Assembly (NCBI GenBank): GCA_009778475.1
Contig: WRJS01000004.1
Span: forward strand, 1-61,606
DNA: 61,606 nucleotides
Source: Kiritimatiellota bacterium
Lineage (GTDB): Bacteria > Verrucomicrobiota > Kiritimatiellia > RFP12 > UBA1067
Reading direction: 5' to 3'
Both the position numbers and the translations under genes were made by a program. Within the stretch, counting starts at the first letter, position 1. Every line of letters begins with the position of its first letter. Positions 5,908-29,396 of this stretch are shown piece by piece. The notes below the pieces were generated by a model. That model was not told the origin of the DNA. It saw only the letters and a program-made list of their open reading frames with translations, and ran no database searches.

Positions 5908-5998
5908 ATCCGAAATCCCCAAGAGTTGATGCATCAATATACCGCAAGGCAGGTCACGCGCACAAGGACAAAAGAAACCGCGCACGGCAAAGGCGTGG

Positions 5999-6058
5999 CT
6001 CGCCGCCAACGCCACCAACATGGCGTGGGCGCTCACCCTGCCGACTCCCGACTCCTGA
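5999..6058 (+). pseudogene. Remnant of an array C-terminal module (last 20 codons)
   Basis: The translation LAANATNMAWALTLPTPDS with a stop at 6056-6058 matches the 3' end of the orphan module at 14388-14447. The rest of the module is missing: homology stops abruptly at about 5997, where helicase upstream DNA begins. This marks the left edge of repeat copy A and shows that the array once extended further or was cut here. Confidence 0.7.
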
Positions 6059-6396
6059 CTCCGAAATGCCCCCTGAAAAATGTGCTTGCATTTCCTTCGG
6101 GGGCAGTGTATCTTTTACACCCTCGCCTCTTTTAAGGCGGGGGCGTAGCGCGGGGCCGGGGGCCATGCTTGCCGTTGTGTTTCAGGTTGTGCATCGCTGT
6201 GTATTGTCGCAGAGTCGGAATAGCCAAGTTGGCGCTTTTTTGAGTGCCTACCATTTTTGATGCGGGAGTATATGGGATGCGCCGCGCTATGTGGCGTATT
6301 CTGTGTCATGTGTTAATAGAGTTTTGGCTAACTCCGATTCTGCATGTGTGAGTATGCCACTTATGGTGAGTGGCGCGTAAAAAAACGGGAGGGGTT
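6059..6396. other. Intergenic leader of repeat copy A
   Basis: No gene is seen. There is a hairpin with arms TGCCCCC (6067-6073) and GGGGGCA (6099-6105). A possible promoter overlaps it: TTGCAT at 6086-6091, 17-nt spacer, TATCTT at 6109-6114. A ribosome site GGGAGGGG precedes the ATG at 6397. The same sequence recurs at 14448-14785. Confidence 0.4.
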
Positions 6397-7254
6397 ATGG
6401 CGGAAAGGTTTATTGCAGTGGCGGAGTCGGTCGGGCGCGGGCTGGCGGTTGCGGGGTATGTGGTGGTGGCGGTCTCGCTGGCGGTGGCCTTCGCGGCGCG
6501 GCTGTGGGAGTCGGGGCTGGCGGGGGAGATGTGGCGGGAGTTCGTCGTGGCGGCGCGGAGGCGGGACGCGTGGGTGTGGGCGCTTATCACGGTGGGCCTG
6601 TCGCTGTGCGCGCAGAAGCGGGGCCCGGCGGAGTGGCTGGAGGAGTGGCGCGAAAGGGCGCAGGGCGGCGGGGCGCAAGCTGAGGGCGGGTTCCCCGGCG
6701 GGCCGCAGAGGGGCGGCGCCGAGGGCGGGGGGCGCGTGGTGTTCCAGTCGGGGGTGCCGCTGGCGGGGCCGCTGCCGGGCGTGGCGGTGCGGTGCGTGAT
6801 GCTCTCCTGCAACGGGGCGGCGGAGGACCTGGCGACGCTGCTGGACGCGCCGGAGGCCGCGCGGCTGAGGATGGCGGCGGAGGGCGGGCTGGAGCCTTGG
6901 ATGGACCCGGCGGAGGCGTCGCTGACGGGGCAGTTCGCGCTGCCGTCCTGGGGGCCTGAGATGTGGCGGGTGGTGACGGTTGACCTCGGGGGCGCCGTGC
7001 CGCTGGGCGACCTGCTCTTCGGGGACGCGGCGGGGCTCGGGGAGTGGGCGCGGCAGTGGCGGGGGGAGATCGCGGAGGCGGTGTTCTTCGACGACATCCC
7101 GGGCGACGGCGCGCGCGCGGGCGTGGCCAACTGGCTGGCGGCGCGGCGGGGCGCGGGGCGGCTCTACCCCGCGACGGCGGCCGAGCGCGGCGCGGCGATC
7201 GCGGCGGGCCTGAACTCCGGTGTTGACTGGGCGACGGTGATTATCGTAAGATAG
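6397..7254 (+). CDS. Membrane-anchored protein with a cryptic LamG/ConA-like domain (copy A)
   Basis: 285 residues. The start is an ATG 5 nt after GGGAGGGG; the frame is open to 6370 but lacks a site there. Two hydrophobic stretches (about residues 12-36 and 58-72) suggest an N-terminal membrane hairpin. Residues 85-115 are Gly-rich. The C-terminal part ends with WRGEIAEAVFFDDIPGDG and a VANWLAARRG helix, which resembles the closing strands of LamG/ConA-like domains, as also seen in the gene at 1-975. I know no named family. The next gene begins 8 nt downstream, so they are probably cotranscribed. It is identical to 14786-15643. Confidence 0.75.
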   Translation: MAERFIAVAESVGRGLAVAGYVVVAVSLAVAFAARLWESGLAGEMWREFVVAARRRDAWVWALITVGLSLCAQKRGPAEWLEEWRERAQGGGAQAEGGFPGGPQRGGAEGGGRVVFQSGVPLAGPLPGVAVRCVMLSCNGAAEDLATLLDAPEAARLRMAAEGGLEPWMDPAEASLTGQFALPSWGPEMWRVVTVDLGGAVPLGDLLFGDAAGLGEWARQWRGEIAEAVFFDDIPGDGARAGVANWLAARRGAGRLYPATAAERGAAIAAGLNSGVDWATVIIVR

Positions 7255-7262
7255 GGGGCGTG

Positions 7263-9545
7263 ATGAAGATGGAATATCCAATATCCAGCACGGAACATCC
7301 AATGTCCAAGTTGAATGCGCTCCGGGTGCGGCCCCGCGCCCGCGCCTCTCACCTTTTACCTTTCACCTCTCACCTTTTACCTTTTACATTTTACCTATTA
7401 CCTATCACCTATCACCTATTACTTCTCACCTGCTCCCTGCCGCCTCTGGCGGCCCTGGCGCAGGGCCTGCCGCAGTGGTACATCGACAAGGGCTGGCCCA
7501 CAGAGGACACCGTGGGCGACGGCATCCCGGACGAGTGGAAGCGGCGCACCTTCGCGCCGAGGGACGCGGACGGCAACTTCCTGCCGAGCGCGCACCTCGA
7601 CCGGGACAACGACGGCCTGACGGACCTGGAGGAGTTCTGGTACGGCAGCGACCCGCGCACCGCCTCGACCATGGGCGACTTCTGGCTCGACTCCGAGAAG
7701 CGCGCGCACGGCCTCGGCGCGTGGGGCAAGGTCACCTCGACCGTCTCCTTCGCGCAGTGGCAGGCGTGGTCCGGCCTTGACGAGGCCGCCTGGCGCCGCG
7801 CCACGCGCCCCTCCGCCGACGGCCTCACCGGCGCGTTCGCCGGCTTCGCCCTCAGCACCCAGCCCTACGCCGCCGAAGCGGGCACCGTGGACTTCTGGCT
7901 CGAGTACCGCGCCGACCGCCACACGCTCCTCACCCTCTCCGACGCGCTCGCGACGAACACGTTCCCGCTCGCCAAGGGCGAGGGCCGCGCGCGCCTGCGC
8001 GTCGCCTACGGCGGCCCCGCCGCGCTCACCATGGACCCCGCCCCCGGCACGCTCGCCGACACCCCCGGCGCCACCAACGGCCTGTGGCTCTGCGAGATGA
8101 AGGTCAAACCCTTCCGCCCCAACACCGTCGTATTCAACGACGGCGACACCCCGCCGCCCCCGCAAGGGGGTTTCGACAGCGTGGACGCCATCATCATCAC
8201 CGCCGCCCCCACCAACGCCGTCCACAGCCTCGAGCCCCCCGAGCCTACGCGCGACGGCCCGCCCACGCGCTGGCCCACCGTCACGCTCCTCCCCGGTTAC
8301 GTATCCCAAGGCGTGACCATGCTCAGCGACGGCTGGTACTGCGTCTCCGGCGACGCCTGCGGCGACTGCGCGTGGCCCACCAACGGCATGATCGAGGCCG
8401 CGGCCGGGATGCCCGCCAGCACCCTCGGCGCGACGCTTCCGGTCATCAGCAAGCAGGCCGCGTGGAATCTCCTCACGACGCCCGAGCTCAAATACGAGGT
8501 CACCGTCACCCAGAAGGTCTTCAGCGCGGGCTACCCGTCCCTCTTCGGCAGCTTCGCCTTCCGCGTCCGCCCCTGCGGCGCCCTCCACCACGGCCCCGAG
8601 GTGCGCGGCGCCGAGCACATCCTCAACCCCACCCACGAGCCCGGCCACTTCCCGACCACCACCTGCGGCGCCGCCGGGTGCCTCTGCTCCGGCGCGTCGC
8701 TCACCCACGTCGGCTTCGACCACGCCAAGGTCAACACGCGCAACCTCAACCACCCCGACGAGTCAGCGGAGGACAAGAAACATCTGCACTGCCTCGGCAT
8801 CATCTACAGCGGCAATACGACCAACCTGCTGGACTTCACCGAGAGTTTCGGGCTGGACATCACCAACCGCGTCAAGTGGGAGGTCAACGGGAAAACGCAG
8901 ACCGGACACACGCTGAAAATAGGCTCAGAACCCAAAGACCTCGACCCAAAAATTTTTCGCATTAAGCTACTGGAGAAAGAGTCGGGCGACGTGTGGGACA
9001 GGTTCATCCTCGTGGTCAACAACCGCAAGACGAAATCCGAATTCGATGGCTGGTATGACGGGAACAAAACGAACACGGCGTGGCTGGCGGAACTGCCTGC
9101 GGCGTATGTGGCGCTTTCGAACCGAGTCGGAAGCACGAGTTTCTATAACCCAGAGCCTTCGACTACAAATTTGTGGTGCGCTCCCGATGAGCCTGGACAA
9201 TATATGCACCATGCAGCAAAATGGCAAATGCGGTCAGAAAAAACACCCGGCAACCATGGACACCAGACATGCTATGATGACGCGGGGAAGATTATCCTTA
9301 ACGGGGTGAGCGCAGGAACGGCAGATTTTAGTTCTCCTAGATGGCATACCTTCAGACCACACGTCCGCGAAGATGTTGACCCCTTTGTCCGCGCCCTTCA
9401 ACTTGACGGAAACCCTTGTACTCGATCTTGGGACGCTCTGACTCATGCACTGATACATGACGGGGAAAACCTCGTCAAGTACCGTGAATGCCGTCCGGCA
9501 GTTCCCAACGATAAACCCATGTTAAATCCGGGGGAACTCCCGTAG
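7263..9545 (+). CDS. Large secreted array protein with C-terminal GHGHQ/RALQLDGNP-type module (copy A)
   Basis: 760 residues. The ATG at 7263 follows AGGGGG; a GTG at 7260 is the alternative. A hydrophobic region encoded by heptamer repeats (7351-7434) ends LAALAQ, a plausible signal-peptidase site. Acidic thrombospondin-type-3/dockerin-like segments follow (DGIPDEW, DRDNDGLTDLEEF, YGSDP), the usual start of secreted PVC proteins. The middle contains Cys-rich SDGWYCVSGDACGDCAW and VGFDHAKVNTRNL. The last 120 residues carry HHAAKWQMRS, NHGHQTCYDD, AGTADF, DVDPFVRALQLDGNP and YRECRP, shared with the orphan modules nearby. GC content drops visibly towards the 3' end. The histidines and aspartates could form a metal site, but no function is established. 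A toxin-like C-terminus is inferred only from the locus layout. Confidence 0.85.
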   Translation: MKMEYPISSTEHPMSKLNALRVRPRARASHLLPFTSHLLPFTFYLLPITYHLLLLTCSLPPLAALAQGLPQWYIDKGWPTEDTVGDGIPDEWKRRTFAPRDADGNFLPSAHLDRDNDGLTDLEEFWYGSDPRTASTMGDFWLDSEKRAHGLGAWGKVTSTVSFAQWQAWSGLDEAAWRRATRPSADGLTGAFAGFALSTQPYAAEAGTVDFWLEYRADRHTLLTLSDALATNTFPLAKGEGRARLRVAYGGPAALTMDPAPGTLADTPGATNGLWLCEMKVKPFRPNTVVFNDGDTPPPPQGGFDSVDAIIITAAPTNAVHSLEPPEPTRDGPPTRWPTVTLLPGYVSQGVTMLSDGWYCVSGDACGDCAWPTNGMIEAAAGMPASTLGATLPVISKQAAWNLLTTPELKYEVTVTQKVFSAGYPSLFGSFAFRVRPCGALHHGPEVRGAEHILNPTHEPGHFPTTTCGAAGCLCSGASLTHVGFDHAKVNTRNLNHPDESAEDKKHLHCLGIIYSGNTTNLLDFTESFGLDITNRVKWEVNGKTQTGHTLKIGSEPKDLDPKIFRIKLLEKESGDVWDRFILVVNNRKTKSEFDGWYDGNKTNTAWLAELPAAYVALSNRVGSTSFYNPEPSTTNLWCAPDEPGQYMHHAAKWQMRSEKTPGNHGHQTCYDDAGKIILNGVSAGTADFSSPRWHTFRPHVREDVDPFVRALQLDGNPCTRSWDALTHALIHDGENLVKYRECRPAVPNDKPMLNPGELP
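7351..7434 (+). repeat. Heptanucleotide array inside the signal-peptide coding region (copy A)
   Basis: Twelve consecutive 7-bp units, consensus ACCTWTY (for example ACCTTTT, ACCTATC). It lies wholly inside the gene at 7263 and encodes the hydrophobic LLPFT/YLLPI/HLL segment. Because 7 is not a multiple of 3, gain or loss of one unit would shift the frame. Confidence 0.9.
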
Positions 9546-9569
9546 CCATTGATGAGAAAGGAAATCACT

Positions 9570-10340
9570 ATGAAACGATTGATTATTCTGTTTTTGCTTT
9601 CGGCGCAATCTGTTTGGGGGCAGAACCCCGTGCCGGATTTGTCTTGGACGTTCCAGTGGGGGACAAATACGGCCGGGATGCTCTTTGAGGACGCCGCTTT
9701 GGCCATGCCGGTCAAAGCGGTCATACGGGATGACATCAAAAGGGTTTACCAGCTTAACCCGCAGTCAAACGCAACATTCCGTTTGTACTTGCCAAGTGAG
9801 GAGGAACATGGGAAATACACAGGCGTTTTCCAGTTCGAGAGGTCAATGGCTTGCCCGAAGGACATCCACAGTTTGGATTACTGCATCTATGGGGGGACGA
9901 ACTATTACGCCATTACGGAATCCATCAGCACTATCTATTCTGAAAAAATAGCATTGACGAACCAGCATCATGCGGCAATCGGGAGCCTTTCCAACTTCCT
10001 GCACACTGTCAACCATGTGTCGGTTGGCAATACCACGCCAGTGGAATTTGCTCAAATGTGGTGGCGGTTCAAGAAAGGACGCGCGGGCGCGTTGGCTGAT
10101 GACACTGTTGAGAGTTTTACGGAGGGCATCCAATCCATGAGCGAAGACCGTTACTATTGCTTGTCGTTGCTTTCGGTTTGGGAAAGGCCGCCGTCATATT
10201 GGAGTGTGCCTTCCGCAAAACCGCTTGTGGTGGGTTGCACCATAAAAGCACTACCCAGAGCTGGCAACGGCAACTCCGACGGGATAGAAATGGATGCCGT
10301 GTATAAGGATGGGCAATGGCGGTTTGTCGCATGGGAATAG
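9570..10340 (+). CDS. Small secreted partner protein, array family (copy A)
   Basis: 256 residues. The ATG at 9570 lies after AAAGGAAAT. Residues 1-18 are a signal peptide ending VWGQ. The N-terminal motif LFEDAALAMPVKAVIRDDI matches the FADTNLT..VKQRIADDL motif of the paralogues at 11197, 12050 and 12817. The C-terminus YKDGQWRFVAWE matches their FYKGKWGFG ending. It sits 24 nt after the large secreted gene and its end overlaps the start of the next module frame. By position it could be an immunity-like or chaperone-like partner, but no named family is recognised. It is identical to 17959-18729. Confidence 0.8.
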   Translation: MKRLIILFLLSAQSVWGQNPVPDLSWTFQWGTNTAGMLFEDAALAMPVKAVIRDDIKRVYQLNPQSNATFRLYLPSEEEHGKYTGVFQFERSMACPKDIHSLDYCIYGGTNYYAITESISTIYSEKIALTNQHHAAIGSLSNFLHTVNHVSVGNTTPVEFAQMWWRFKKGRAGALADDTVESFTEGIQSMSEDRYYCLSLLSVWERPPSYWSVPSAKPLVVGCTIKALPRAGNGNSDGIEMDAVYKDGQWRFVAWE

Positions 10341-11182
10341 AATATCGTCCCAGCCATGCGGAGGAGCAATACCAGAAAACGGAGCATTGCCTCGGCATCG
10401 TGTGGGGCAACGGCGGCTCAACGAACCTCTTCAACCTGCTCTGCACCGACGGCTTCACCGACGACATCCGCACCAACCTCTACTTCACCTCGCAGGTCAA
10501 CGCCAAGGGCGCGAAGGCCGAGGTCGCAAAACACACCCTGCCCTTCGGCGCGAAACCCAAGGACATGGACCCCCGCATTTTCCACGTCGAACTCCGCCAC
10601 CGAGGGAACCCCGGCGAGGTTTTTGACAGGCTGTGGGTTGCCGTCAACGCACCCGAGACACTGGCGAGTTATAACGCATGGGTCGCCGCCAACGCCACCA
10701 ACATGGCCTGGACGCTTACCCTGCCACAGGTGTTTGAATCGATAGAAATCAAGAACGGAGAGGCAGTCCGTCCTGAGCCAAACCGCCCGCGCCAATAGGT
10801 AACCCCGAAAAGACTCAATTCATTCCTCCACCATGATGCCTCATTTGATATACGATCGTATCCCGTGGGTGATGACCACGGGCATCAGGCGACATACGAT
10901 GCCCACGGCAACGTGATCAAAAAGGGCGTTGCCGCAGGGACGGCCGACCGTGTTTCGACGGTGAATGAGGCGGGGTTCTCTGTGCCGAGTTTGGGGCATC
11001 AGACCCAAGACGTGCAACCGTTCATCCGCGCGTTGCAACTGGACGGGAACCCGTGTTTGAGGAAAACCAAGAGTGGGTTCATAGCAGACATAACCCGCCC
11101 CATGATTTATCAAGGAACGAATCTTACCAATTACATCGAGTGTCGCCCTGTGAGTCCTACAGGAATGCGCCCGAGACCATAA
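10316..11182 (+). pseudogene. Orphan C-terminal module, interrupted by an in-frame stop
   Basis: Homology to the large protein and the module at 18705 starts just after the partner stop (SHAEEQYQKTEHCLGIVWG). It continues through KPKDMDPRIFHVELRHR and WVAANATNMAWTLTLP to a TAG at 10796-10798. In the same frame, similarity resumes at about 10826 (LHHDASFDIRS, GDDHGHQATYD, AGTADR, DVQPFIRALQLDGNP, YIECRP) and runs to the stop at 11180-11182. The linker before the TAG reads better in another frame, suggesting two compensating indels. It has no signal peptide. The first ATG (10316) lies inside the partner gene, so separate expression is doubtful. Confidence 0.75.
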
Positions 11183-11196
11183 GGAAGGAGAAAACC

Positions 11197-11943
11197 ATGA
11201 AACGTCTCATATCAGTGTGCTGTGTTAGTTTGCCCCTTTTGGGGTTAGCCCAGACGGCGCAGGTTCATATCGCAGGGAGTGACTATCCCGTTGTGTTCGC
11301 GGACATGAACCTTACAGGCAATGTCAAGCAACGTATCGTTGCTGAAATGACGACAGCCTTTTCACTCGGCTATCCCTTTGACGACCTGAAGGGGCAGGAA
11401 ATAGAAACGGGAGTCTTCCAGCTGAACGAAGACACGGCCATCTTCTGGGAAGAACAAAAGGCGGTTTCCCTTGCGGACAAAGGCAACGGAAAGAGCATAC
11501 AGGTCGGCAAGGCTTTGTCGGACAAATACCTGCAAGCCTTCGCATGGATGGACACCCATTCGAACACGGTTCAAAAAGCGCAGGCGTTTGTGGCGACACT
11601 GAACAGTCCTGACTTACTTTCAAAACCTTTTCCGGTATTGTTGGGCATGTTGCATTTTGACCCGTTATCGGACATGGAAGAGAATGATCCCCCCAGTGAT
11701 TTTAAGATACGGGGTATGTTCCAAAAGGATTTCCACCCTTATAAATATCTTGGAGTTACGGTATCGAGCTTCTATTTTAAACCGGTTCCAGAACTAGGGG
11801 GTAAGGAAATCCCCTTGCTTCTCCTTTTCGCCGTTGATAAATCAGGGCCGGTTCCACCAGCAACGGTATGTCCTCTCCCGATTGGCTTCTACAAAGGGAA
11901 GTGGGGGTTTGGCAACTTCCCTGCCCCGTTCAACATCCCCTGA
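11197..11943 (+). CDS. Small secreted partner protein, array family
   Basis: 248 residues. The ATG follows AAGGAAGGAG, a strong ribosome site. The signal peptide ends LGLAQ. The family motif is YPVVFADMNLTGNVKQRIVAEM; the middle motif HSNTVQKAQAFVATLN and the end FYKGKWGFGNF are shared with 12050 and 12817. It lies 14 nt after the stop of the interrupted module, the same module-then-partner order as elsewhere in the array. It is predicted to be periplasmic or secreted; function unknown. The sequence is AT-richer than the housekeeping genes. Confidence 0.8.
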   Translation: MKRLISVCCVSLPLLGLAQTAQVHIAGSDYPVVFADMNLTGNVKQRIVAEMTTAFSLGYPFDDLKGQEIETGVFQLNEDTAIFWEEQKAVSLADKGNGKSIQVGKALSDKYLQAFAWMDTHSNTVQKAQAFVATLNSPDLLSKPFPVLLGMLHFDPLSDMEENDPPSDFKIRGMFQKDFHPYKYLGVTVSSFYFKPVPELGGKEIPLLLLFAVDKSGPVPPATVCPLPIGFYKGKWGFGNFPAPFNIP

Positions 11944-12037
11944 TTATCTACGCCCTTGCCTGTGTCAAGGCAGTTGCCTTGACCAGTATTTGGAATGCCG
12001 CCCTGCCACACCGACAGGGACACGCCCAAGACAGTAA
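11942..12037 (+). pseudogene. Remnant of a module C-terminus
   Basis: The open frame reads LRPCLCQGSCLDQYLECRP and ends PTGTRPRQ with a stop at 12035-12037. This equals the last 30 residues of a module (compare the end of 11182 and 20510). Everything upstream has been replaced by the preceding partner gene. It shows that a module once preceded the partner at 12050. Confidence 0.65.
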
Positions 12038-12049
12038 AGGAGAAGGACA

Positions 12050-12811
12050 ATGAAGAAACTGCATTATGTTGTTGCCATGCTATGCTTACCCTTTTGGGGG
12101 CAAGCGCAAACAGTACAGGTTCGTATAGCAGAAACAAACTATCCTGCCATATTTACCGATGCTAGCCTGTCGGTAACGAACCAACAGCGTATCGCCGCTG
12201 ACCTCACGCTCGTCTTTTCTCTAGCCTCTTCATTTGATAGGCTGAAGGGGAGGTTGGGAGGCGAGGAAGGGGTTTTCGAGCCGAACATCGACGTGTCGAT
12301 GTTCTGTTTGAGCGAGTGGAACGATGGCATTCTCCTTATTGACCAAGGCAATCAAAAAAGTGTACGGGTACAGAAAACGGCATCGGACTTATACCTTCGT
12401 TCCTTCGCCCTGATAGAGGCTCATTCAAACGCCGTCCGGGCGGCGCATGAGTTTGTGACGATGCTGAACCACACCAACCTGCTCGCACAATCAATACAGG
12501 TACTTCGGAATTTATATCACGTTGCGCCGTTATCGGACATAGAAGAAGAAGATTTTACCGATGATGAAGTCTTGAGACGTGTCGCAGAAAGACAAAATTA
12601 CAAATACCCTGAGATTAGCGTGCGGAATTTCTTTTTACAACGAATTCCCGAGCTCGATGATGCGGAAGTGCTTGTAACATGCCTTTACATGATTGAGAAA
12701 GCAGATCCGTCACTGGAAAAAATCTATGGCATTCCGATTGATTTTTATAAAGGGAGATGGGGATTGGGACGGTCTCCCTTGGACATACAGAGGTCTGAAA
12801 TCGTGGAGTAG
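12050..12811 (+). CDS. Small secreted partner protein, array family
   Basis: 253 residues with a signal peptide ending WGQAQ. A ribosome site AAGGAGAAGG lies just upstream of the ATG. Shared motifs: YPAIFTDASLSVTNQQRIAAD, then HSNAVRAAHEFVTMLN, then PIDFYKGRWGLG. It is roughly as divergent from 11197 as from 12817, so these are old paralogues rather than recent copies. It sits between a module remnant and another partner (5 nt downstream), probably transcribed together. Function unknown; possible immunity-type partner by context. Confidence 0.8.
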   Translation: MKKLHYVVAMLCLPFWGQAQTVQVRIAETNYPAIFTDASLSVTNQQRIAADLTLVFSLASSFDRLKGRLGGEEGVFEPNIDVSMFCLSEWNDGILLIDQGNQKSVRVQKTASDLYLRSFALIEAHSNAVRAAHEFVTMLNHTNLLAQSIQVLRNLYHVAPLSDIEEEDFTDDEVLRRVAERQNYKYPEISVRNFFLQRIPELDDAEVLVTCLYMIEKADPSLEKIYGIPIDFYKGRWGLGRSPLDIQRSEIVE

Positions 12812-12816
12812 CGACC

Positions 12817-13596
12817 ATGAAGAAGCTACACCGTATCGTATTGTTGTCTTGTGCAGCTTTGCCGTTTTTGGGGCAAGCCCAGACCGCACAAGTCCATATC
12901 GCAGGAAGCGCCTACCCTGTGCTGTTCGCAGACACGAACCTTACGAGTAAAGTTAAGCAACGTATTGCTGACGACTTGACCATCGCCTTCTCTCCTGCCC
13001 CTTCGTTTGAGAGGGCAATGGGGGGGGATGAAGTGGAGGCGACAACTCCTTTGCCGGGCGGAGACACTGCCGTCACTAGTTTTATAGGGCGTGATTATTG
13101 GGAAGGGGCTTTCGGACCGAGCCGTAACCATTCCATGCTCTGTTTCGACGAGATTCGGGAGGGTATTTACCTTGTGGACTACAACGGCCAGAAAAGCGTG
13201 CGGATAGATAAGGTCGCGTCCAGTAATTACCTGCACACATTCGCGCTGATGAAGGCGCACTCAAACGCTGTCGCAAAAGCGCATGAGTTTGTGGAGGCTC
13301 TAAAGAACCCCAACCTGGCTTCAGAGCCTCTGCAAGTGCTGAAAGATATGCACCATGCGTTGCCGTTGAAAGAGACGGACGACGACACCTACCGCGGGTT
13401 CGCGAGAGAGACGCAGAAATGCAAAAACCTCGAGCTTTGCGCGCTGAACTTCTCTTTGCAGATGTGTCCCGAACTCAGCGACCAGAAGGTGCTTGTGGCG
13501 GTGCAATTTTCACTGTACCAGTCCGACCCGTCAAAGCTCCACGGTTTTCCGATTATCTTCCATAACGGCAGATGGGGGTTCGGGAAATACTGGTGA
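12817..13596 (+). CDS. Small secreted partner protein, array family
   Basis: 259 residues. The signal peptide ends LGQAQ. The family N-motif is YPVLFADTNLTSKVKQRIADD, the middle HSNAVAKAHEFVEALKN, the end IIFHNGRWGFGKYW. A short insert at residues 70-100 is missing in its neighbours. The preceding partner stops only 5 nt upstream, so the two are translationally close. The following orphan module begins a few nucleotides after its stop. Confidence 0.8.
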   Translation: MKKLHRIVLLSCAALPFLGQAQTAQVHIAGSAYPVLFADTNLTSKVKQRIADDLTIAFSPAPSFERAMGGDEVEATTPLPGGDTAVTSFIGRDYWEGAFGPSRNHSMLCFDEIREGIYLVDYNGQKSVRIDKVASSNYLHTFALMKAHSNAVAKAHEFVEALKNPNLASEPLQVLKDMHHALPLKETDDDTYRGFARETQKCKNLELCALNFSLQMCPELSDQKVLVAVQFSLYQSDPSKLHGFPIIFHNGRWGFGKYW

Positions 13597-13601
13597 CGAC
13601 C

Positions 13602-14447
13602 ATGGGGGCTAAAACCGTGCTCGGCGGCGACGGCTGGTTCTGCATCTCCGACGCCTACTGCGTTTCGGGCTGCTGCGCGTGGCCCACCTACGGCATGATC
13701 GGATGCGACGCGCTCACCCTCTCCATGCACAACCTGCAACCGGCCGACCCCATCATGCCCAAGCAGGACGCGTGGCAGATATTCTGCGACCGCCAGCCCT
13801 GCGCCGAGTGCGTCATCACGCAGACGCTCAGCCACGCGGCCTTCCCCCCCATCTACAGCAAGGTCATCTTCCGCGTCCGCCAGTGCGGCGCGCTAAGCGA
13901 CGGCGTCCGCGGCGCGGAGAGCGACCCCGCCCACACCCCCGCCTACTACCCCCACGCCGCCTGCCACGGCATCCAGTGCGAATGCCTCGGCGCCCCCGTC
14001 TGGCTCGTCGGCTTCGACCACGCAAAGGTCAACACGCGCAACCTCTCCGTCATCGCCAGCCACGCGGAGGAACAATACCAAAACACGAGCCACTGCCTCG
14101 GCATCGTGTGGGGCGACGGCGGCTCGACGAACCTCTTCAACCTGCTCTGCACCGACGGCTTCACTGACGACATCCGCACCAACCTCTACTTCACCTCGCA
14201 GGTCAACGCCAAGGGAGCGAAGGCCGAAGTTCAAAACCACATCCTGCCCTTCGGCGCGAAACCAAAAGACATGGAGCCACGGATTTTCCACGTCGAGCTG
14301 CGCCACCGCGAGAAAGGCGCCAACGTCCTCGACAGGCTCTGGGTCACGGTCAACTCCCTCGAAACGCTCACGAATTACAACAACTGGGTCGCCGCCAACG
14401 CCACCAACATGGCGTGGGCGCTCACCCTGGCGCCCCCCGACTCCTGA
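13602..14447 (+). CDS. Orphan module lacking signal peptide and the final GHGHQ domain
   Basis: 281 residues from an ATG at 13602 (the frame is open to 13572, inside the previous gene). Homology to the large secreted protein begins at GGDGWFCISDAYCVSGCCAW and runs through FRVRQCGAL, VGFDHAKVNTRNL, HCLGIVWGDGGSTNLFNLLC, DMEPRIFHVELRHR to WVAANATNMAWALTLAPPDS, where it stops. The C-terminal GHGHQ domain is missing because repeat copy B starts right after the stop. There is no export signal and only a weak ribosome site. It may be a silent cassette or debris rather than an expressed protein. Confidence 0.55.
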   Translation: MGAKTVLGGDGWFCISDAYCVSGCCAWPTYGMIGCDALTLSMHNLQPADPIMPKQDAWQIFCDRQPCAECVITQTLSHAAFPPIYSKVIFRVRQCGALSDGVRGAESDPAHTPAYYPHAACHGIQCECLGAPVWLVGFDHAKVNTRNLSVIASHAEEQYQNTSHCLGIVWGDGGSTNLFNLLCTDGFTDDIRTNLYFTSQVNAKGAKAEVQNHILPFGAKPKDMEPRIFHVELRHREKGANVLDRLWVTVNSLETLTNYNNWVAANATNMAWALTLAPPDS

Positions 14448-14785
14448 CTCCGAAATGCCCCCTGAAAAATGTGCTTGCATTTCCTTCGGGGGCAGTGTAT
14501 CTTTTACACCCTCGCCTCTTTTAAGGCGGGGGCGTAGCGCGGGGCCGGGGGCCATGCTTGCCGTTGTGTTTCAGGTTGTGCATCGCTGTGTATTGTCGCA
14601 GAGTCGGAATAGCCAAGTTGGCGCTTTTTTGAGTGCCTACCATTTTTGATGCGGGAGTATATGGGATGCGCCGCGCTATGTGGCGTATTCTGTGTCATGT
14701 GTTAATAGAGTTTTGGCTAACTCCGATTCTGCATGTGTGAGTATGCCACTTATGGTGAGTGGCGCGTAAAAAAACGGGAGGGGTT

Positions 14786-15643
14786 ATGGCGGAAAGGTTT
14801 ATTGCAGTGGCGGAGTCGGTCGGGCGCGGGCTGGCGGTTGCGGGGTATGTGGTGGTGGCGGTCTCGCTGGCGGTGGCCTTCGCGGCGCGGCTGTGGGAGT
14901 CGGGGCTGGCGGGGGAGATGTGGCGGGAGTTCGTCGTGGCGGCGCGGAGGCGGGACGCGTGGGTGTGGGCGCTTATCACGGTGGGCCTGTCGCTGTGCGC
15001 GCAGAAGCGGGGCCCGGCGGAGTGGCTGGAGGAGTGGCGCGAAAGGGCGCAGGGCGGCGGGGCGCAAGCTGAGGGCGGGTTCCCCGGCGGGCCGCAGAGG
15101 GGCGGCGCCGAGGGCGGGGGGCGCGTGGTGTTCCAGTCGGGGGTGCCGCTGGCGGGGCCGCTGCCGGGCGTGGCGGTGCGGTGCGTGATGCTCTCCTGCA
15201 ACGGGGCGGCGGAGGACCTGGCGACGCTGCTGGACGCGCCGGAGGCCGCGCGGCTGAGGATGGCGGCGGAGGGCGGGCTGGAGCCTTGGATGGACCCGGC
15301 GGAGGCGTCGCTGACGGGGCAGTTCGCGCTGCCGTCCTGGGGGCCTGAGATGTGGCGGGTGGTGACGGTTGACCTCGGGGGCGCCGTGCCGCTGGGCGAC
15401 CTGCTCTTCGGGGACGCGGCGGGGCTCGGGGAGTGGGCGCGGCAGTGGCGGGGGGAGATCGCGGAGGCGGTGTTCTTCGACGACATCCCGGGCGACGGCG
15501 CGCGCGCGGGCGTGGCCAACTGGCTGGCGGCGCGGCGGGGCGCGGGGCGGCTCTACCCCGCGACGGCGGCCGAGCGCGGCGCGGCGATCGCGGCGGGCCT
15601 GAACTCCGGTGTTGACTGGGCGACGGTGATTATCGTAAGATAG
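14786..15643 (+). CDS. Membrane-anchored protein with a cryptic LamG/ConA-like domain (copy B)
   Basis: Identical to the protein at 6397-7254: N-terminal hydrophobic hairpin, Gly-rich linker and a ConA-like closing motif WRGEIAEAVFFDD. The ATG at 14786 follows GGGAGGGG. It lies 8 nt before the second copy of the large secreted gene, so cotranscription is likely. Upstream, the truncated orphan module ends at 14447. The perfect conservation could reflect recent duplication or ongoing conversion between copies. Confidence 0.75.
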   Translation: MAERFIAVAESVGRGLAVAGYVVVAVSLAVAFAARLWESGLAGEMWREFVVAARRRDAWVWALITVGLSLCAQKRGPAEWLEEWRERAQGGGAQAEGGFPGGPQRGGAEGGGRVVFQSGVPLAGPLPGVAVRCVMLSCNGAAEDLATLLDAPEAARLRMAAEGGLEPWMDPAEASLTGQFALPSWGPEMWRVVTVDLGGAVPLGDLLFGDAAGLGEWARQWRGEIAEAVFFDDIPGDGARAGVANWLAARRGAGRLYPATAAERGAAIAAGLNSGVDWATVIIVR

Positions 15644-15651
15644 GGGGCGTG

Positions 15652-17934
15652 ATGAAGATGGAATATCCAATATCCAGCACGGAACATCCAATGTCCAAGT
15701 TGAATGCGCTCCGGGTGCGGCCCCGCGCCCGCGCCTCTCACCTTTTACCTTTCACCTCTCACCTTTTACCTTTTACATTTTACCTATTACCTATCACCTA
15801 TCACCTATTACTTCTCACCTGCTCCCTGCCGCCTCTGGCGGCCCTGGCGCAGGGCCTGCCGCAGTGGTACATCGACAAGGGCTGGCCCACAGAGGACACC
15901 GTGGGCGACGGCATCCCGGACGAGTGGAAGCGGCGCACCTTCGCGCCGAGGGACGCGGACGGCAACTTCCTGCCGAGCGCGCACCTCGACCGGGACAACG
16001 ACGGCCTGACGGACCTGGAGGAGTTCTGGTACGGCAGCGACCCGCGCACCGCCTCGACCATGGGCGACTTCTGGCTCGACTCCGAGAAGCGCGCGCACGG
16101 CCTCGGCGCGTGGGGCAAGGTCACCTCGACCGTCTCCTTCGCGCAGTGGCAGGCGTGGTCCGGCCTTGACGAGGCCGCCTGGCGCCGCGCCACGCGCCCC
16201 TCCGCCGACGGCCTCACCGGCGCGTTCGCCGGCTTCGCCCTCAGCACCCAGCCCTACGCCGCCGAAGCGGGCACCGTGGACTTCTGGCTCGAGTACCGCG
16301 CCGACCGCCACACGCTCCTCACCCTCTCCGACGCGCTCGCGACGAACACGTTCCCGCTCGCCAAGGGCGAGGGCCGCGCGCGCCTGCGCGTCGCCTACGG
16401 CGGCCCCGCCGCGCTCACCATGGACCCCGCCCCCGGCACGCTCGCCGACACCCCCGGCGCCACCAACGGCCTGTGGCTCTGCGAGATGAAGGTCAAACCC
16501 TTCCGCCCCAACACCGTCGTATTCAACGACGGCGACACCCCGCCGCCCCCGCAAGGGGGTTTCGACAGCGTGGACGCCATCATCATCACCGCCGCCCCCA
16601 CCAACGCCGTCCACAGCCTCGAGCCCCCCGAGCCTACGCGCGACGGCCCGCCCACGCGCTGGCCCACCGTCACGCTCCTCCCCGGTTACGTATCCCAAGG
16701 CGTGACCATGCTCAGCGACGGCTGGTACTGCGTCTCCGGCGACGCCTGCGGCGACTGCGCGTGGCCCACCAACGGCATGATCGAGGCCGCGGCCGGGATG
16801 CCCGCCAGCACCCTCGGCGCGACGCTTCCGGTCATCAGCAAGCAGGCCGCGTGGAATCTCCTCACGACGCCCGAGCTCAAATACGAGGTCACCGTCACCC
16901 AGAAGGTCTTCAGCGCGGGCTACCCGTCCCTCTTCGGCAGCTTCGCCTTCCGCGTCCGCCCCTGCGGCGCCCTCCACCACGGCCCCGAGGTGCGCGGCGC
17001 CGAGCACATCCTCAACCCCACCCACGAGCCCGGCCACTTCCCGACCACCACCTGCGGCGCCGCCGGGTGCCTCTGCTCCGGCGCGTCGCTCACCCACGTC
17101 GGCTTCGACCACGCCAAGGTCAACACGCGCAACCTCAACCACCCCGACGAGTCAGCGGAGGACAAGAAACATCTGCACTGCCTCGGCATCATCTACAGCG
17201 GCAATACGACCAACCTGCTGGACTTCACCGAGAGTTTCGGGCTGGACATCACCAACCGCGTCAAGTGGGAGGTCAACGGGAAAACGCAGACCGGACACAC
17301 GCTGAAAATAGGCTCAGAACCCAAAGACCTCGACCCAAAAATTTTTCGCATTAAGCTACTGGAGAAAGAGTCGGGCGACGTGTGGGACAGGTTCATCCTC
17401 GTGGTCAACAACCGCAAGACGAAATCCGAATTCGATGGCTGGTATGACGGGAACAAAACGAACACGGCGTGGCTGGCGGAACTGCCTGCGGCGTATGTGG
17501 CGCTTTCGAACCGAGTCGGAAGCACGAGTTTCTATAACCCAGAGCCTTCGACTACAAATTTGTGGTGCGCTCCCGATGAGCCTGGACAATATATGCACCA
17601 TGCAGCAAAATGGCAAATGCGGTCAGAAAAAACACCCGGCAACCATGGACACCAGACATGCTATGATGACGCGGGGAAGATTATCCTTAACGGGGTGAGC
17701 GCAGGAACGGCAGATTTTAGTTCTCCTAGATGGCATACCTTCAGACCACACGTCCGCGAAGATGTTGACCCCTTTGTCCGCGCCCTTCAACTTGACGGAA
17801 ACCCTTGTACTCGATCTTGGGACGCTCTGACTCATGCACTGATACATGACGGGGAAAACCTCGTCAAGTACCGTGAATGCCGTCCGGCAGTTCCCAACGA
17901 TAAACCCATGTTAAATCCGGGGGAACTCCCGTAG
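15652..17934 (+). CDS. Large secreted array protein with C-terminal GHGHQ/RALQLDGNP-type module (copy B)
   Basis: 760 residues, identical to the protein at 7263-9545, including the heptamer-encoded signal peptide (15740-15823), the Ca-binding-like DRDNDGLTDLEEF segment and the C-terminal NHGHQ, AGTADF and DVDPFVRALQLDGNP motifs. Starts ATG 15652 or GTG 15649. The two copies would be free to exchange C-termini with the orphan modules by homologous recombination, since module DNA is shared between them. No function is assigned beyond predicted secretion. Confidence 0.85.
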   Translation: MKMEYPISSTEHPMSKLNALRVRPRARASHLLPFTSHLLPFTFYLLPITYHLLLLTCSLPPLAALAQGLPQWYIDKGWPTEDTVGDGIPDEWKRRTFAPRDADGNFLPSAHLDRDNDGLTDLEEFWYGSDPRTASTMGDFWLDSEKRAHGLGAWGKVTSTVSFAQWQAWSGLDEAAWRRATRPSADGLTGAFAGFALSTQPYAAEAGTVDFWLEYRADRHTLLTLSDALATNTFPLAKGEGRARLRVAYGGPAALTMDPAPGTLADTPGATNGLWLCEMKVKPFRPNTVVFNDGDTPPPPQGGFDSVDAIIITAAPTNAVHSLEPPEPTRDGPPTRWPTVTLLPGYVSQGVTMLSDGWYCVSGDACGDCAWPTNGMIEAAAGMPASTLGATLPVISKQAAWNLLTTPELKYEVTVTQKVFSAGYPSLFGSFAFRVRPCGALHHGPEVRGAEHILNPTHEPGHFPTTTCGAAGCLCSGASLTHVGFDHAKVNTRNLNHPDESAEDKKHLHCLGIIYSGNTTNLLDFTESFGLDITNRVKWEVNGKTQTGHTLKIGSEPKDLDPKIFRIKLLEKESGDVWDRFILVVNNRKTKSEFDGWYDGNKTNTAWLAELPAAYVALSNRVGSTSFYNPEPSTTNLWCAPDEPGQYMHHAAKWQMRSEKTPGNHGHQTCYDDAGKIILNGVSAGTADFSSPRWHTFRPHVREDVDPFVRALQLDGNPCTRSWDALTHALIHDGENLVKYRECRPAVPNDKPMLNPGELP
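15740..15823 (+). repeat. Heptanucleotide array inside the signal-peptide coding region (copy B)
   Basis: Twelve 7-bp units, the same units in the same order as 7351-7434. Equal unit number in both copies shows that no slippage has occurred since the duplication. Confidence 0.9.
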
Positions 17935-17958
17935 CCATTGATGAGAAAGGAAATCACT

Positions 17959-18729
17959 ATGAAACGATTGATTATTCTGTTTTTGCTTTCGGCGCAATCT
18001 GTTTGGGGGCAGAACCCCGTGCCGGATTTGTCTTGGACGTTCCAGTGGGGGACAAATACGGCCGGGATGCTCTTTGAGGACGCCGCTTTGGCCATGCCGG
18101 TCAAAGCGGTCATACGGGATGACATCAAAAGGGTTTACCAGCTTAACCCGCAGTCAAACGCAACATTCCGTTTGTACTTGCCAAGTGAGGAGGAACATGG
18201 GAAATACACAGGCGTTTTCCAGTTCGAGAGGTCAATGGCTTGCCCGAAGGACATCCACAGTTTGGATTACTGCATCTATGGGGGGACGAACTATTACGCC
18301 ATTACGGAATCCATCAGCACTATCTATTCTGAAAAAATAGCATTGACGAACCAGCATCATGCGGCAATCGGGAGCCTTTCCAACTTCCTGCACACTGTCA
18401 ACCATGTGTCGGTTGGCAATACCACGCCAGTGGAATTTGCTCAAATGTGGTGGCGGTTCAAGAAAGGACGCGCGGGCGCGTTGGCTGATGACACTGTTGA
18501 GAGTTTTACGGAGGGCATCCAATCCATGAGCGAAGACCGTTACTATTGCTTGTCGTTGCTTTCGGTTTGGGAAAGGCCGCCGTCATATTGGAGTGTGCCT
18601 TCCGCAAAACCGCTTGTGGTGGGTTGCACCATAAAAGCACTACCCAGAGCTGGCAACGGCAACTCCGACGGGATAGAAATGGATGCCGTGTATAAGGATG
18701 GGCAATGGCGGTTTGTCGCATGGGAATAG
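17959..18729 (+). CDS. Small secreted partner protein, array family (copy B)
   Basis: 256 residues, identical to 9570-10340: signal peptide, LFEDAALAMPVKAVIRDDI motif and YKDGQWRFVAWE end. A 3' fragment of a divergent homologue lies at 21624 and a 5' fragment at 22032. It ends inside the start of the following module frame. Confidence 0.8.
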   Translation: MKRLIILFLLSAQSVWGQNPVPDLSWTFQWGTNTAGMLFEDAALAMPVKAVIRDDIKRVYQLNPQSNATFRLYLPSEEEHGKYTGVFQFERSMACPKDIHSLDYCIYGGTNYYAITESISTIYSEKIALTNQHHAAIGSLSNFLHTVNHVSVGNTTPVEFAQMWWRFKKGRAGALADDTVESFTEGIQSMSEDRYYCLSLLSVWERPPSYWSVPSAKPLVVGCTIKALPRAGNGNSDGIEMDAVYKDGQWRFVAWE

Positions 18730-19580
18730 AATATCGTCCCAGCCATGCGGAGGAGCAATACCAGAAAACGGAGCATTGCCTCGGCATCGTGTGGGGCAAC
18801 GGCGGCTCAACGAACCTCTTCAACCTGCTCTGCACCGACGGCTTCACCGACGACATCCGCACCAACCTCTACTTCACCTCGCAGGTCAACGCCAAGGGCG
18901 CGAAGGCCGAGGTCGCAAACCACACCCTGCCCTTCGGCGCGAAACCCAAGGACATGGACCCCCGCATTTTCCACGTCGAGCTCCGCCACCGAGAGAGGGA
19001 AGAGATTTTCGACAGGCTCTGGGTTGTCATCAACGCCCCCGAAACTCACGCCAACTACACCAACCGGGTCGCCATCAACTCTACCAATATGGCGTGGACG
19101 CTCACCCTGCCCCCGCCGTTTGCTTCAATCATAGTTAATGGCAACACCCCTGTCGATCCAGAACCACCGATTGGTTTTTGGAATGATTCTGGCGTTTGGC
19201 ATAAGCCTGAACCCAAGAACACGTATCTTCATCATAATGCTCCGTTTGAAATGCGGTCTAAACCTGTGACAGGAGGACACGGGCATCAGGCAATGTACGA
19301 TACGAACGGTCTCTTAATTGAAACTACCATCGCGGCAGGGACGGCTGATTTTGTTTCGCCTGACGGTCCCAATAGCGCACGGCGTCACAGGAATTTCGAT
19401 GTTTACCCGTACATCCGTGCTTTGCAGCTTGACGGGAATCCAGTCCGGTCGGTAAGTGCCGCCATCGGTCTTGGGGTCGTGGACGCCCCAACCAATCTCG
19501 ACCGCCCCTGCATTTATCAGGGAGATTACACAGACTCATACATCGAAAGACGTCCAGTCTTGCCAACAGGAAAGAGGTAG
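18705..19580 (+). CDS. Orphan C-terminal module with intact GHGHQ/RALQLDGNP domain
   Basis: 291 residues; the ATG at 18705 lies inside the end of the partner gene in another frame, and 18720 is an alternative. Homology starts at SHAEEQYQKTEHCLGIVWG. DNA from 18740 to about 18990 is nearly the same as in the other two modules, then diverges. The C-terminus is intact: YLHHNAPFEMRS, GGHGHQAMYDTNG, AGTADF, DVYPYIRALQLDGNP, YIERRP. There is no signal peptide, so if expressed alone it would stay in the cytoplasm. It may serve as a donor for replacing the end of the large gene (inference). The partner at 19582 follows after 1 nt. Confidence 0.65.
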   Translation: MAVCRMGIEYRPSHAEEQYQKTEHCLGIVWGNGGSTNLFNLLCTDGFTDDIRTNLYFTSQVNAKGAKAEVANHTLPFGAKPKDMDPRIFHVELRHREREEIFDRLWVVINAPETHANYTNRVAINSTNMAWTLTLPPPFASIIVNGNTPVDPEPPIGFWNDSGVWHKPEPKNTYLHHNAPFEMRSKPVTGGHGHQAMYDTNGLLIETTIAAGTADFVSPDGPNSARRHRNFDVYPYIRALQLDGNPVRSVSAAIGLGVVDAPTNLDRPCIYQGDYTDSYIERRPVLPTGKR

Positions 19581-19581
19581 C

Positions 19582-20352
19582 ATGAAAACAAAACCACTAA
19601 CGTTCATTCTTTTTTCAGCCGCAATGATGTTTCACGCCCCGCATTGCGCGGGGCAGAGCAACGTTGTGTATTACGGGGCAAACTCCAACGCGCTAAATGT
19701 CGCATTCGCAGACACGAGCCTTTCCGCAAAGGCGAAGGCCGCTATCACAGCTGACTTGAATCTCTGTTTACGGGAATGGGGGAAAACTAGTGACTTGCGT
19801 CTTGGGGACAAAAACACTGCCGGACAACTTTACAATTGGAAAACAAGCCCGCATTATCCAGAAGGGGTTATTGATTTCCCTGAAAACATTACCTCGGACG
19901 GGGCATCCGGCGTTGCCTTGCAGATAACCAAGGAACTTAGCGATGCCTACACCAATGCGTTCGCGTTTGTTGCTGCAAACAGTAATATTGTCGCCGCCGC
20001 TTATAAGTTTGTGACGCTCATTTCGTCAAACGGCTTTGCCGCCTCTGTCACACCTGCCAGCATAACGGACTATGTCTTGGTGAAAAAGTACAAGCCTCAA
20101 GACTATATTGCCAACTATCAAGAACTCATGGAGGGATGTTTCATTGCACCGAAGTGGCATCAGCCGAGCGTGCTGGGGTTTCGCCATAGCGGGGCAGACC
20201 CTTCCCTTGCAAACTTGTGGCTGGTTATCCCTGCCTATACTCCGCCGGAACCCCTCGCTGGTTCCGTCGGGGAATGGTTGGGATTAGCGGCTATATGGCA
20301 TGATGGGAAATGGAAGCTCTGTTTCTGGGGATGGGACGATAGCCCACGGTGA
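19582..20352 (+). CDS. Small secreted partner protein, divergent array family member
   Basis: 256 residues. The ATG lies 1 nt after the module stop, with AGAGG upstream. The signal peptide ends CAGQ. The family motif is recognisable (VAFADTSLSAKAKAAITADLN), as are ANSNIVAAAYKFVTLI and the end IWHDGKWKLCFWGW, but the middle differs from all other partners. It is the only partner directly coupled to an intact GHGHQ module that is not the repeat copy. Such sequence divergence with fixed position is what cognate immunity proteins show, but no activity is known. Confidence 0.78.
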   Translation: MKTKPLTFILFSAAMMFHAPHCAGQSNVVYYGANSNALNVAFADTSLSAKAKAAITADLNLCLREWGKTSDLRLGDKNTAGQLYNWKTSPHYPEGVIDFPENITSDGASGVALQITKELSDAYTNAFAFVAANSNIVAAAYKFVTLISSNGFAASVTPASITDYVLVKKYKPQDYIANYQELMEGCFIAPKWHQPSVLGFRHSGADPSLANLWLVIPAYTPPEPLAGSVGEWLGLAAIWHDGKWKLCFWGWDDSPR

Positions 20353-20579
20353 ACACTCGAGGCAGGTTGCAACTTGACGGGAATCCATGCTTGCCGAAAA
20401 CAAAGGACATACCCCAAACTCTGTTGCGCCCTTGCCTGTGTCAAGGCGGGCATCTGAACCAATATCTGGAATGCCGCCCTGCCACGCCGACAGGGACACG
20501 CCCAAGACCCATAAGGAGAAAGACCATGAAAAAGCCACATTGTATAGCATCGTTACTGTGTTGCGTCTGCTTAAGCTGA
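20349..20579 (+). pseudogene. Module tail remnant fused to a partner stub
   Basis: One short frame reads RLQLDGNPCLPKTKD, then LLRPCLCQGGHLNQYLECRP, the last part of a module with the middle deleted. It continues in frame into MKKPHCIASLLCCVCLS and a stop at 20577-20579, the start of a partner signal peptide (compare MKKLHRIVLLSC at 12817). It is a collapsed module-partner cassette. Confidence 0.65.
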
Positions 20580-20662
20580 GAACACGATGAACACGAAGAT
20601 GATGACACTCACGCTTGATGTATTATTTCTGATGCTATAACGGAAAATGTGATGGAGGTATT

Positions 20663-21622
20663 ATGAGGAAAACCATGTTGCTTTCTTGGCTGCGGAGATT
20701 TCTTGTCCTGACTGCGTACGGCGTTATCTTTTTCATGTCGTTCTACCATTACTCGCTTGGGCGGACGCATGAGTTTCGTGCCTTTGGGACGACACTGCAC
20801 AATGTGCTGTTCGCGGCGGCGTTTACAGCCGCGACGTTCTTCCCTGCGTGGATTGTCATCCTGTACAGCCTCGTTTCGAAAACCTCACCAACAGGTGTGA
20901 AAATAGGAGGTCGCGTCGGCGTGGCTGTGCTGGCAACGCTTGGGAGCATCTTCCTTCGGCGGCGCCATACGACGTTTGACCTAGCCTGCCCTCTTTATCT
21001 CATCGAGATAGCCGTTATCATCTGCCATGTTGAAATCAACCGCCACCTTAAAACCGTCAAGTCAAAAGCCATTTTGGCGTGTGTGACGGGGGGGCTTGGT
21101 TTTGCGGCCTTTGCCGTGCCTTTCTTGCTGGCATCGGTTAGATGGCCGAATGCCGCGGACAGGGAGGTCTTGGGATATCTATGTATATTTGTTTTTCTCA
21201 TGCTCATGCGAACCTGCCCGCAGATTTTTGCATCGGCATTCCTGGTCGGCAGGAAAATCCCGCAACCCGCACGGGGGCGTCACGCCATTGCTGGATGCTG
21301 CCTGTTTCTGTGCGGGTGCGCGGCATGTGAGACGTGGATAGCGGCTGACGAAGCGCGGTATACCCGCCAACTCAACGAATGGAAAGCGCAGCATACTTTT
21401 CTAACCCCCAGTGAAAAAGAGGCGATTGAGGCGGAATTGAAAACTATCGAGCGCCAGCGAGATAGTGAAAAGTGGGCGCCCAACCCAGAACTTCAAGCCC
21501 GCAGTAGCACATTGCACACGTTGCAATTTCGCGACCACTTCGGGAGAAAACGCGTTTGGCCCAACAGGGACATCACGATAATGTATTGGGTAAACGGGGA
21601 AATACATAACTCGCCCTACTGA
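20663..21622 (+). CDS. Multi-pass membrane protein of unknown function
   Basis: 319 residues. Hydrophobic segments at about 10-30, 45-70, 82-96, 105-122, 133-155, 165-190 and 208-224 suggest about seven membrane helices; the last 95 residues are hydrophilic with a charged helix (PSEKEAIEAELKTIERQRDSEKW). A GGAGG ribosome site is just upstream. No family is recognised. It lies inside the partner/module array, so it may be an integral-membrane partner or an unrelated insertion. AT-richer than the flanking core genes. Confidence 0.65.
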   Translation: MRKTMLLSWLRRFLVLTAYGVIFFMSFYHYSLGRTHEFRAFGTTLHNVLFAAAFTAATFFPAWIVILYSLVSKTSPTGVKIGGRVGVAVLATLGSIFLRRRHTTFDLACPLYLIEIAVIICHVEINRHLKTVKSKAILACVTGGLGFAAFAVPFLLASVRWPNAADREVLGYLCIFVFLMLMRTCPQIFASAFLVGRKIPQPARGRHAIAGCCLFLCGCAACETWIAADEARYTRQLNEWKAQHTFLTPSEKEAIEAELKTIERQRDSEKWAPNPELQARSSTLHTLQFRDHFGRKRVWPNRDITIMYWVNGEIHNSPY

Positions 21623-21623
21623 T

Positions 21624-22025
21624 GTGGCAGTAAACTATCTTGCCAAAATCACGTTGACTAATGCACATCCGACGATGATAAGCGGGTTGTCTAATTTCTT
21701 GGCACAAGTCTCCATTTGTTCGCCAGGCAACACGACGGATGAGGCATTCACAAGCTTGCATTGGTCGCTGGAGAAGAACGCCCCGATGACGATGCAGGAC
21801 TGGGGAGAACGAAGTATCCAAGGGCATAAGACGGACGCGTTAGATGTCACCTACGGATTCCCATCGCTTTTAGATTTTTCCGTGATCAATCTGGAAGGGG
21901 GAGGGACTTTCATTGCTTGCACTTTGCGCCATGCGATTCCCAAGGACAAGCCAACCCAGCCTAAGCTCGGTGACGTTTTCATATATACGGGCAACCAATG
22001 GTATTTCGCTGATTGGAAGTTTTAG
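21624..22025 (+). pseudogene. 3' fragment of a partner gene
   Basis: Reads from a GTG at 21624: KITLTNAHPTMISGLSNFLA and NTTDEAFTSLHWSLEK, ending VFIYTGNQWYFADWKF. It aligns with the second half of the 9570 partner (KIALTNQHHAAIGSLSNFL, YKDGQWRFVAWE). The signal peptide and FxDxxL half are missing; the preceding membrane gene stops 1 nt upstream. Confidence 0.65.
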
Positions 22026-22031
22026 CATATT

Positions 22032-22151
22032 ATGAAAAAGAGAATCATCGTGTTCATCATATTCCCCGTGTGTGTGTCTATGGCGCAAACCAACTGGACA
22101 TTCCAATGGCATGGGCAGGAGAGGGGGATTCTTTTCGCCCAACAAGGATGA
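22032..22151 (+). pseudogene. 5' stub of a partner gene
   Basis: Thirty-nine codons from an ATG at 22032: a signal peptide ending SMAQ, then NWTFQWHGQERGILF and a stop at 22149-22151. It matches the start of the 9570 partner (LSWTFQWGTNTAGMLFED) and breaks off there. Confidence 0.65.
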
Positions 22152-29387: not shown

Positions 29388-29396
29388 TCTCACACT

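Follow-up and report, generated by a model that had tools for sequence, protein, structure and literature searches.

A predicted toxin-immunity array of AMOP-like tips and secreted partner proteins in a Kiritimatiellota genome

Introduction

The C-terminal position of RHS toxins is the site of their toxic tip. In Neisseria, mafB-CT pieces, some of which lack a start, are each followed by a mafI gene (PMC4287609), and in polymorphic toxin loci strings of immunity genes are described as leftovers of replaced tips in the part of the survey drawn on here (PMC3482391), which also covers immunity families that adopt an NTF2 fold, Imm-NTF2 and Imm-NTF2-2.

Here we describe a locus on a complete contig of a draft genome of a Kiritimatiellota bacterium (GCA_009778475.1, WRJS01000004.1), the whole 61,606 nt of which form the window that we analysed; its closest named relative, in the same genus, is the Kiritimatiellaeota MAG WRML01000109.1 (G001). 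A sequence-only reading had proposed that the window encodes a new family of secreted partner proteins shaped by diversifying selection or repeated import. The secreted new family stands, selection over whole genes is not supported, and the large secreted protein that the family accompanies, here called BIG, had gone unseen together with its 3′ fragments. We consider it probable that these genes form a MafB-like polymorphic-toxin locus, in which an AMOP-like tip with predicted toxicity would act on the envelope and secreted partners would serve as immunity proteins.

Results

The accessory, BIG and partner features of the locus all lie on the forward strand, in a 5′-to-3′ series that opens with an accessory gene (6370..7254) whose product has an N-terminal membrane segment and which sits directly 5′ of BIG, in a MafA-like position. 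BIG (7260..9545) encodes a 761-aa secreted protein comprising a leader, a TSP3-like repeat, an Ig-like domain and an AMOP-like C-terminal domain (9033..9527), the predicted toxin tip, and is followed after 24 bp by secreted partner 1 (9570..10340), a predicted immunity protein. Next come a BIG 3′ fragment, found by tblastn and genome search, with a partial Ig-like domain and an AMOP-like tip interrupted by a single internal TAG (10346..11182), partner 2 (11197..11943), a sliver of the extreme BIG C-terminus visible in six-frame translation (11951..12037; 83% DNA identity to 20427-20541), partner 3 (12050..12811), partner 4 (12817..13596) and a BIG fragment covering aa ~352-613 by tblastn that ends ahead of the AMOP-like tip (13614..14447). 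The accessory gene (14759..15643), BIG (15649..17934) and partner 1 (17959..18729) then recur as second copies, those of BIG and partner 1 being identical to the first, followed by a BIG 3′ fragment that sequence comparison shows to carry an intact but different AMOP-like tip (18732..19580) and, 1 bp after this tip, by partner 5 (19582..20352). The series closes with a second C-terminal BIG sliver, also recognised by sequence comparison (20367..20510), a partner-gene stub consisting of the leader alone and then a stop (20527..20580), a membrane protein, a decayed partner gene of which the C-terminal half is left (21582..22025) and an N-terminal partner stub identified by match and translation (22032..22139). 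The membrane protein (20663-21622; 319 aa, no family match) occupies the place of a partner gene's missing N-terminal half and may be an insertion. The accessory protein has no Pfam match; over 175 aa it shares 51% identity with the product of the gene directly 5′ of BIG in another genome (L087), and its homologues also adjoin the system in L089, L072 and L150, giving at least five loci overall. Elsewhere in the window, an IS1595-type transposase lies near the left end (1097-1750), and 29376-32072 encodes a leader-bearing 898-aa protein built from ankyrin-like repeats, the DNA itself being internally repetitive.

The recurring accessory, BIG and partner 1 genes belong to a 4.7-kb duplication (5996-10736 and 14385-19122) that is 99.07% identical overall and 100% identical across 6047-10530 (4.48 kb), with its differences crowded at the ends, a break inside homologous BIG sequence and a mosaic end at 10531-10736. 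Unequal recombination in the very recent past may have produced it, or else the exact duplication of ~4.5 kb may be an assembly error; our conclusions do not rest on it. Five of the partner genes in this array are complete, the other partner copies being remnants or stubs. The downstream BIG pieces comprise one with a whole tip, one with the internal TAG, one without a tip and two slivers of 30-50 codons. An antidote kept after its weapon is lost is typical of polymorphic toxins, and by this analogy the window appears to match the pattern.

Structure and sequence agree on the nature of the BIG tip. PF18884 (TSP3_bac) matched BIG below threshold. An alignment of the C-terminal 284 residues of BIG to 21 relatives was modelled with AlphaFold at a mean pLDDT of 92.8. 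In this model, residues 1-112 (BIG ~478-590) are Ig-like, with many folds near VIA Z 5-6.7, and residues 115-279 (BIG ~592-756) match the AMOP domain of human isthmin-1, 131 residues being superposed with an rmsd of 3.0 and a VIA Z of 11.7 against 6.7 for the second-best match. Foldseek likewise returned isthmin-1 (9c6t, E 8.5e-5, prob 1.0), whose two chains were the only matches with E < 0.001, and the profile of the tip alignment finds the same entry in the PDB at E 5e-4. Pfam AMOP (PF03782) was matched weakly by 4 of the 22 tip members (best 0.0036), and all BIG tips score below 25 bits, under the gathering cut-off; the animal AMOP cysteines are mostly replaced in the alignment. We therefore describe the C-terminal ~165 residues of BIG, which have the AMOP fold of 9c6t on the predicted model, as an AMOP-like domain and not as AMOP by the Pfam rule. 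The bacterial tips and isthmin have RS, Y, AGT, H and DV.P in common, a conservation that may have purely structural reasons.

Among 95 relatives, the N-terminal half of BIG occurs essentially with AMOP-like tips and was not found with an unrelated one; tip variation in BIG-type genes falls within one domain family. Known toxin enzyme folds are missing from the structure matches of the tip, though this does not count as evidence of absence, and PADLOC returned nothing for the tip in anti-phage defence. Viral contigs hold no relative of the BIG tip and plasmid records no match for a BIG-type tip; as an RHS AMOP tip, described below, was also unmatched in phage and plasmid records, we rejected a viral origin. 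Three acidobacterial AMOP-like proteins (L100 6001-6519, L102 1316-1834 and L099 5038-6585), of which two are short and have a membrane segment, lack a partner gene. The domain can therefore occur where there is no immunity protein, and these versions may be harmless derivatives. At the other end of BIG, about twelve copies of a heptanucleotide of the CCTTTTA/CCTATCA type (7345-7430 and 15734-15819) encode the hydrophobic core of the signal peptide, and arrays of the same type, of 4-28 units, occur at many other sites in the genome. Since the 7-bp unit shifts the reading frame, phase variation of BIG is possible.

The partners form a single family, as the sequence-only reading had proposed: an iterated profile built from the five window proteins only and run over 2,286 open frames from the window and related loci gathered 60-61 members. 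Each full window partner was recovered with an E-value between 1e-51 and 1e-56, and the fragment at 21624 with 4e-23. The six complete proteins originally counted reduce to five, because the genes at 9570 and 17959 are the two copies of the duplication and encode the same protein, and the fragments at 21624 and 22032 proved to be decayed remnants of the family, to which the leader stub at 20527-20580 is a further addition. Pairwise identity is 44% for 12050/12817, 40% for 11197/12050 and 26-30% for 19582 against these, and the 21624 and 22032 pieces match 9549 at 28% (E 3e-8) and at 36% over 39 residues (E 0.018), respectively. A hydrophobic leader begins 30 of 32 partner-family genes, in agreement with the signal peptide proposed as common to them. 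Divergence is large (mean column identity 21% among 31 aligned sequences), and the W of the C-terminal YxxGxW, a motif already picked out from the letters, is the sole invariant column, with F116 and P68 near-invariant; the HSNxV motif exists too, but in part of the family only. A profile search that could have placed the partners in a known family gave only scattered matches at chance level in Pfam, NCBIfam, PHROGs and PADLOC, none of them convincing, and we rejected such an assignment; the family thus remains new. Partner-family proteins also occur in another gene context at L148 6949-8418 and L149 7350-8150 (genomes G237 and G291), where we found no AMOP-like tip, possibly reflecting a different use of the fold.

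The selection proposed to explain the spread of similarity among the partners found no support at the level of the whole gene, which is what our measurements address: dN was well below dS in every measurable pair, with whole-gene dN/dS of ~0.14-0.4 and dS often saturated. Diversifying selection over whole genes is neither needed nor shown, although it may act at individual sites, and the spread is better explained by tip and partner cassettes exchanged as units.

In an AlphaFold model of partner 3 (pLDDT 89.0, pTM 0.87), an N-terminal alpha/beta part precedes a C-terminal half with a resemblance to NTF2-like proteins. The proposal of NTF2-like ends made from sequence thus provides the best structural lead for this half, but the match to NTF2/ketosteroid-isomerase folds is too weak to settle it (VIA Z 4.5-5.7 over residues 105-229, with many NTF2 folds tied; best Foldseek E 0.05), and on this model the half is perhaps NTF2-like. 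None of the 31 partner members had a Pfam match to Imm-NTF2 or Imm-NTF2-2, to which a remote relationship is nevertheless possible.

Partners follow either the end of BIG (7260-9545 and its copy 15649-17934) or a cut-off 3′ BIG piece, starting -4 to +38 bp from the tip stop in the 18 pairs measured. The system is patchily distributed (19/388 genomes), and a partner is present in 9/9 genomes with a strong BIG tip as against 14/388 overall (P 4e-15). Tip and partner identities are correlated over 22 pairs (Mantel r 0.62, reached by 0 of 10,000 permutations). When partner paralogues were reshuffled within the three multi-pair genomes, the mean r was 0.365 and the true pairing was the best of 864, and the correlation is therefore not just shared species history. 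Across genera, proteins like partner 5 go with one tip class and proteins like partner 1 with another, and divergence is greater among partners (9-67% identity) than among tips (31-75%). At the sequence level, these results show that tip and partner move as a unit, although co-inherited neighbours also correlate and the correlation by itself is no proof of binding. Orphan tip cassettes lie 3′ of the full gene here (10346, 18732 and the slivers) and at L063, L070 and L071; L091 and L095, two contigs of one genome, contain extra tip and partner cassettes and rows of partners, and L152 has three partners in a row.

Within the phylum Verrucomicrobiota, AMOP passes the Pfam cut-off in 5 of 376 genomes. 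We assembled nine RHS-AMOP proteins, comprising the AMOP of four of those five genomes and five weaker ones, and AMOP was the last domain of an RHS-repeat protein in all nine. TIGR03696 was detected in every one of the nine scanned and exceeded its cut-off in eight; the tips of L158, L159 and L160 meet the PF03782 cut-off, and in L158 and L160 both models exceed their cut-offs in the same protein. In each of the nine, the next gene is small, encodes a lipoprotein or a membrane protein and starts -19 to +39 bp from the stop. Its location and product are those that one would expect if it gave immunity to a toxin acting on the envelope, and the leader-bearing partner of BIG fits the same logic. 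The lipoproteins of L159 and L160, the two tested as candidate partner-family members, are not detectably related to it by sequence. A search with one RHS AMOP tip also matches BIG-type tips (G081 and G248).

Discussion

From the arrangement of the genes, the tip would be a weapon of the bacterium, with the partners as antidotes. In the mechanism that we propose, BIG would be exported by its signal peptide and either held at the surface or released, and its AMOP-like C-terminal domain would be a toxic tip passed to neighbouring bacteria and active in their envelope, in the periplasm or the membrane. The leader-bearing partners would be immunity proteins in the periplasm, each binding and blocking the tip encoded just upstream. 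New tip and immunity cassettes would enter by recombination within the 3′ part of the BIG gene, and displaced tips would decay while their immunity genes persist, leaving the array.

BIG has a leader and a distinct C-terminal domain of predicted toxicity. Several hallmarks of polymorphic toxins are present: the C-terminal domain is also the tip of recognised toxin scaffolds (RHS), orphan tip cassettes lie 3′ of the full gene, and a small gene directly 3′ of the tip gene co-varies with the tip, as expected of an immunity protein. Another hallmark, a constant N-terminus with unrelated tips, was not found, and our claim is therefore that the locus works like a polymorphic toxin. Counting against the proposed mechanism are the single tip family in all BIG-type genes, the partnerless acidobacterial proteins, the weakness of the NTF2-like match of the partners and the fact that no delivery apparatus was identified. 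To our knowledge, animal AMOP domains are also not known as toxic, which weighs on the same side.

In an alternative reading, BIG would serve adhesion or recognition by binding a surface ligand through its AMOP-like tip, the partner would be a co-receptor, chaperone or assembly factor and the array would diversify binding specificity or kin recognition. Animal AMOP is an extracellular adhesion-associated domain (MUC4, isthmin), BIG carries TSP3-like and Ig-like surface domains with one tip family throughout, and its partner is secreted; we nonetheless think this reading unlikely, as AMOP also sits at RHS tips beside neighbours from unrelated families, and the partner genes outlast the tips and form rows without a whole BIG, unlike a dedicated chaperone. 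It is more improbable still that BIG undergoes antigenic variation by gene conversion from the tip fragments as silent cassettes, with the partners carried along. The fragments do lack leader and N-terminus, and the exact 4.5-kb duplication with its mosaic end points to recombination within BIG, but it is the fragments that decay, down to an internal TAG and slivers, and the partners that stay whole, the opposite of what an archive needs. The scantest chance goes to an enzyme and inhibitor pair not aimed at bacteria, for example a secreted hydrolase with a periplasmic inhibitor serving nutrition or development: the invariant R, Q, Y, D, H, D and N of the tip would suit a catalytic site and the acidobacterial version does without a partner, yet a patchy distribution and cassette arrays are unlike housekeeping functions. 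A toxin with secreted immunity proteins remains our preferred reading.

If this reading is right, it adds a new toxin tip family and a new secreted immunity family to the polymorphic toxins, from a poorly studied phylum, and a puzzling animal domain gains a bacterial toxin relative. It would also provide a testable claim on the AMOP of tumour-associated mucins and isthmins, whose bacterial relatives would possess an activity open to selection and would bind proteins as their natural ligands. More tentatively, and with the balance against it, AMOP could have been originally a bacterial toxin tip, present in at least two scaffolds (RHS and TSP3/Ig) with envelope-located immunity, which animals captured for MUC4, SUSD2 and isthmin; a comparable capture has been proposed for teneurins and RHS-type toxins. 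Were this true, AMOP would have its first natural set of binding proteins in the secreted partner family. Our literature search returned no paper tying AMOP to bacterial toxins or RHS proteins and none naming RHS-AMOP proteins as such, and AMOP is absent from the portion of the main catalogue of polymorphic toxins considered here.

Compared with the AMOP domain (PF03782; MUC4, SUSD2, isthmin), the BIG tips share the fold and the motif RS..CY....LI...AGT...H..DVlP, but they are below the cut-off, have most cysteines replaced, are bacterial and come with a partner gene. The partners may share an NTF2-like fold with Imm-NTF2 and Imm-NTF2-2, as far as the portion of the survey used here describes these (PMC3482391), and have a conserved W and a position next to a predicted toxin in common with them; they differ in having no detectable sequence match, a leader of their own and an extra N-terminal alpha/beta part. 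In the AMOP-tipped RHS-repeat proteins (among them L078 and L158-L160), AMOP is the last domain and a small envelope-protein gene lies directly 3′, an arrangement like that of BIG and its partner, but the scaffold is RHS in place of TSP3/Ig, the neighbours, which are lipoproteins or polytopic proteins, show no detectable relation to the BIG partners, and some of the tips retain the animal-type cysteines (C..RS..GQQCCYD) that BIG tips have largely lost. With MafB/MafI of Neisseria (PMC4287609), the locus shares a signal-peptide toxin, here predicted, a surface-associated gene upstream and a cognate small gene directly 3′, followed by 3′ toxin pieces, some startless, each with its own small gene; it differs in that the MafB and MafA family models are unmatched here, the tip is always AMOP-like and the partner has its own leader.
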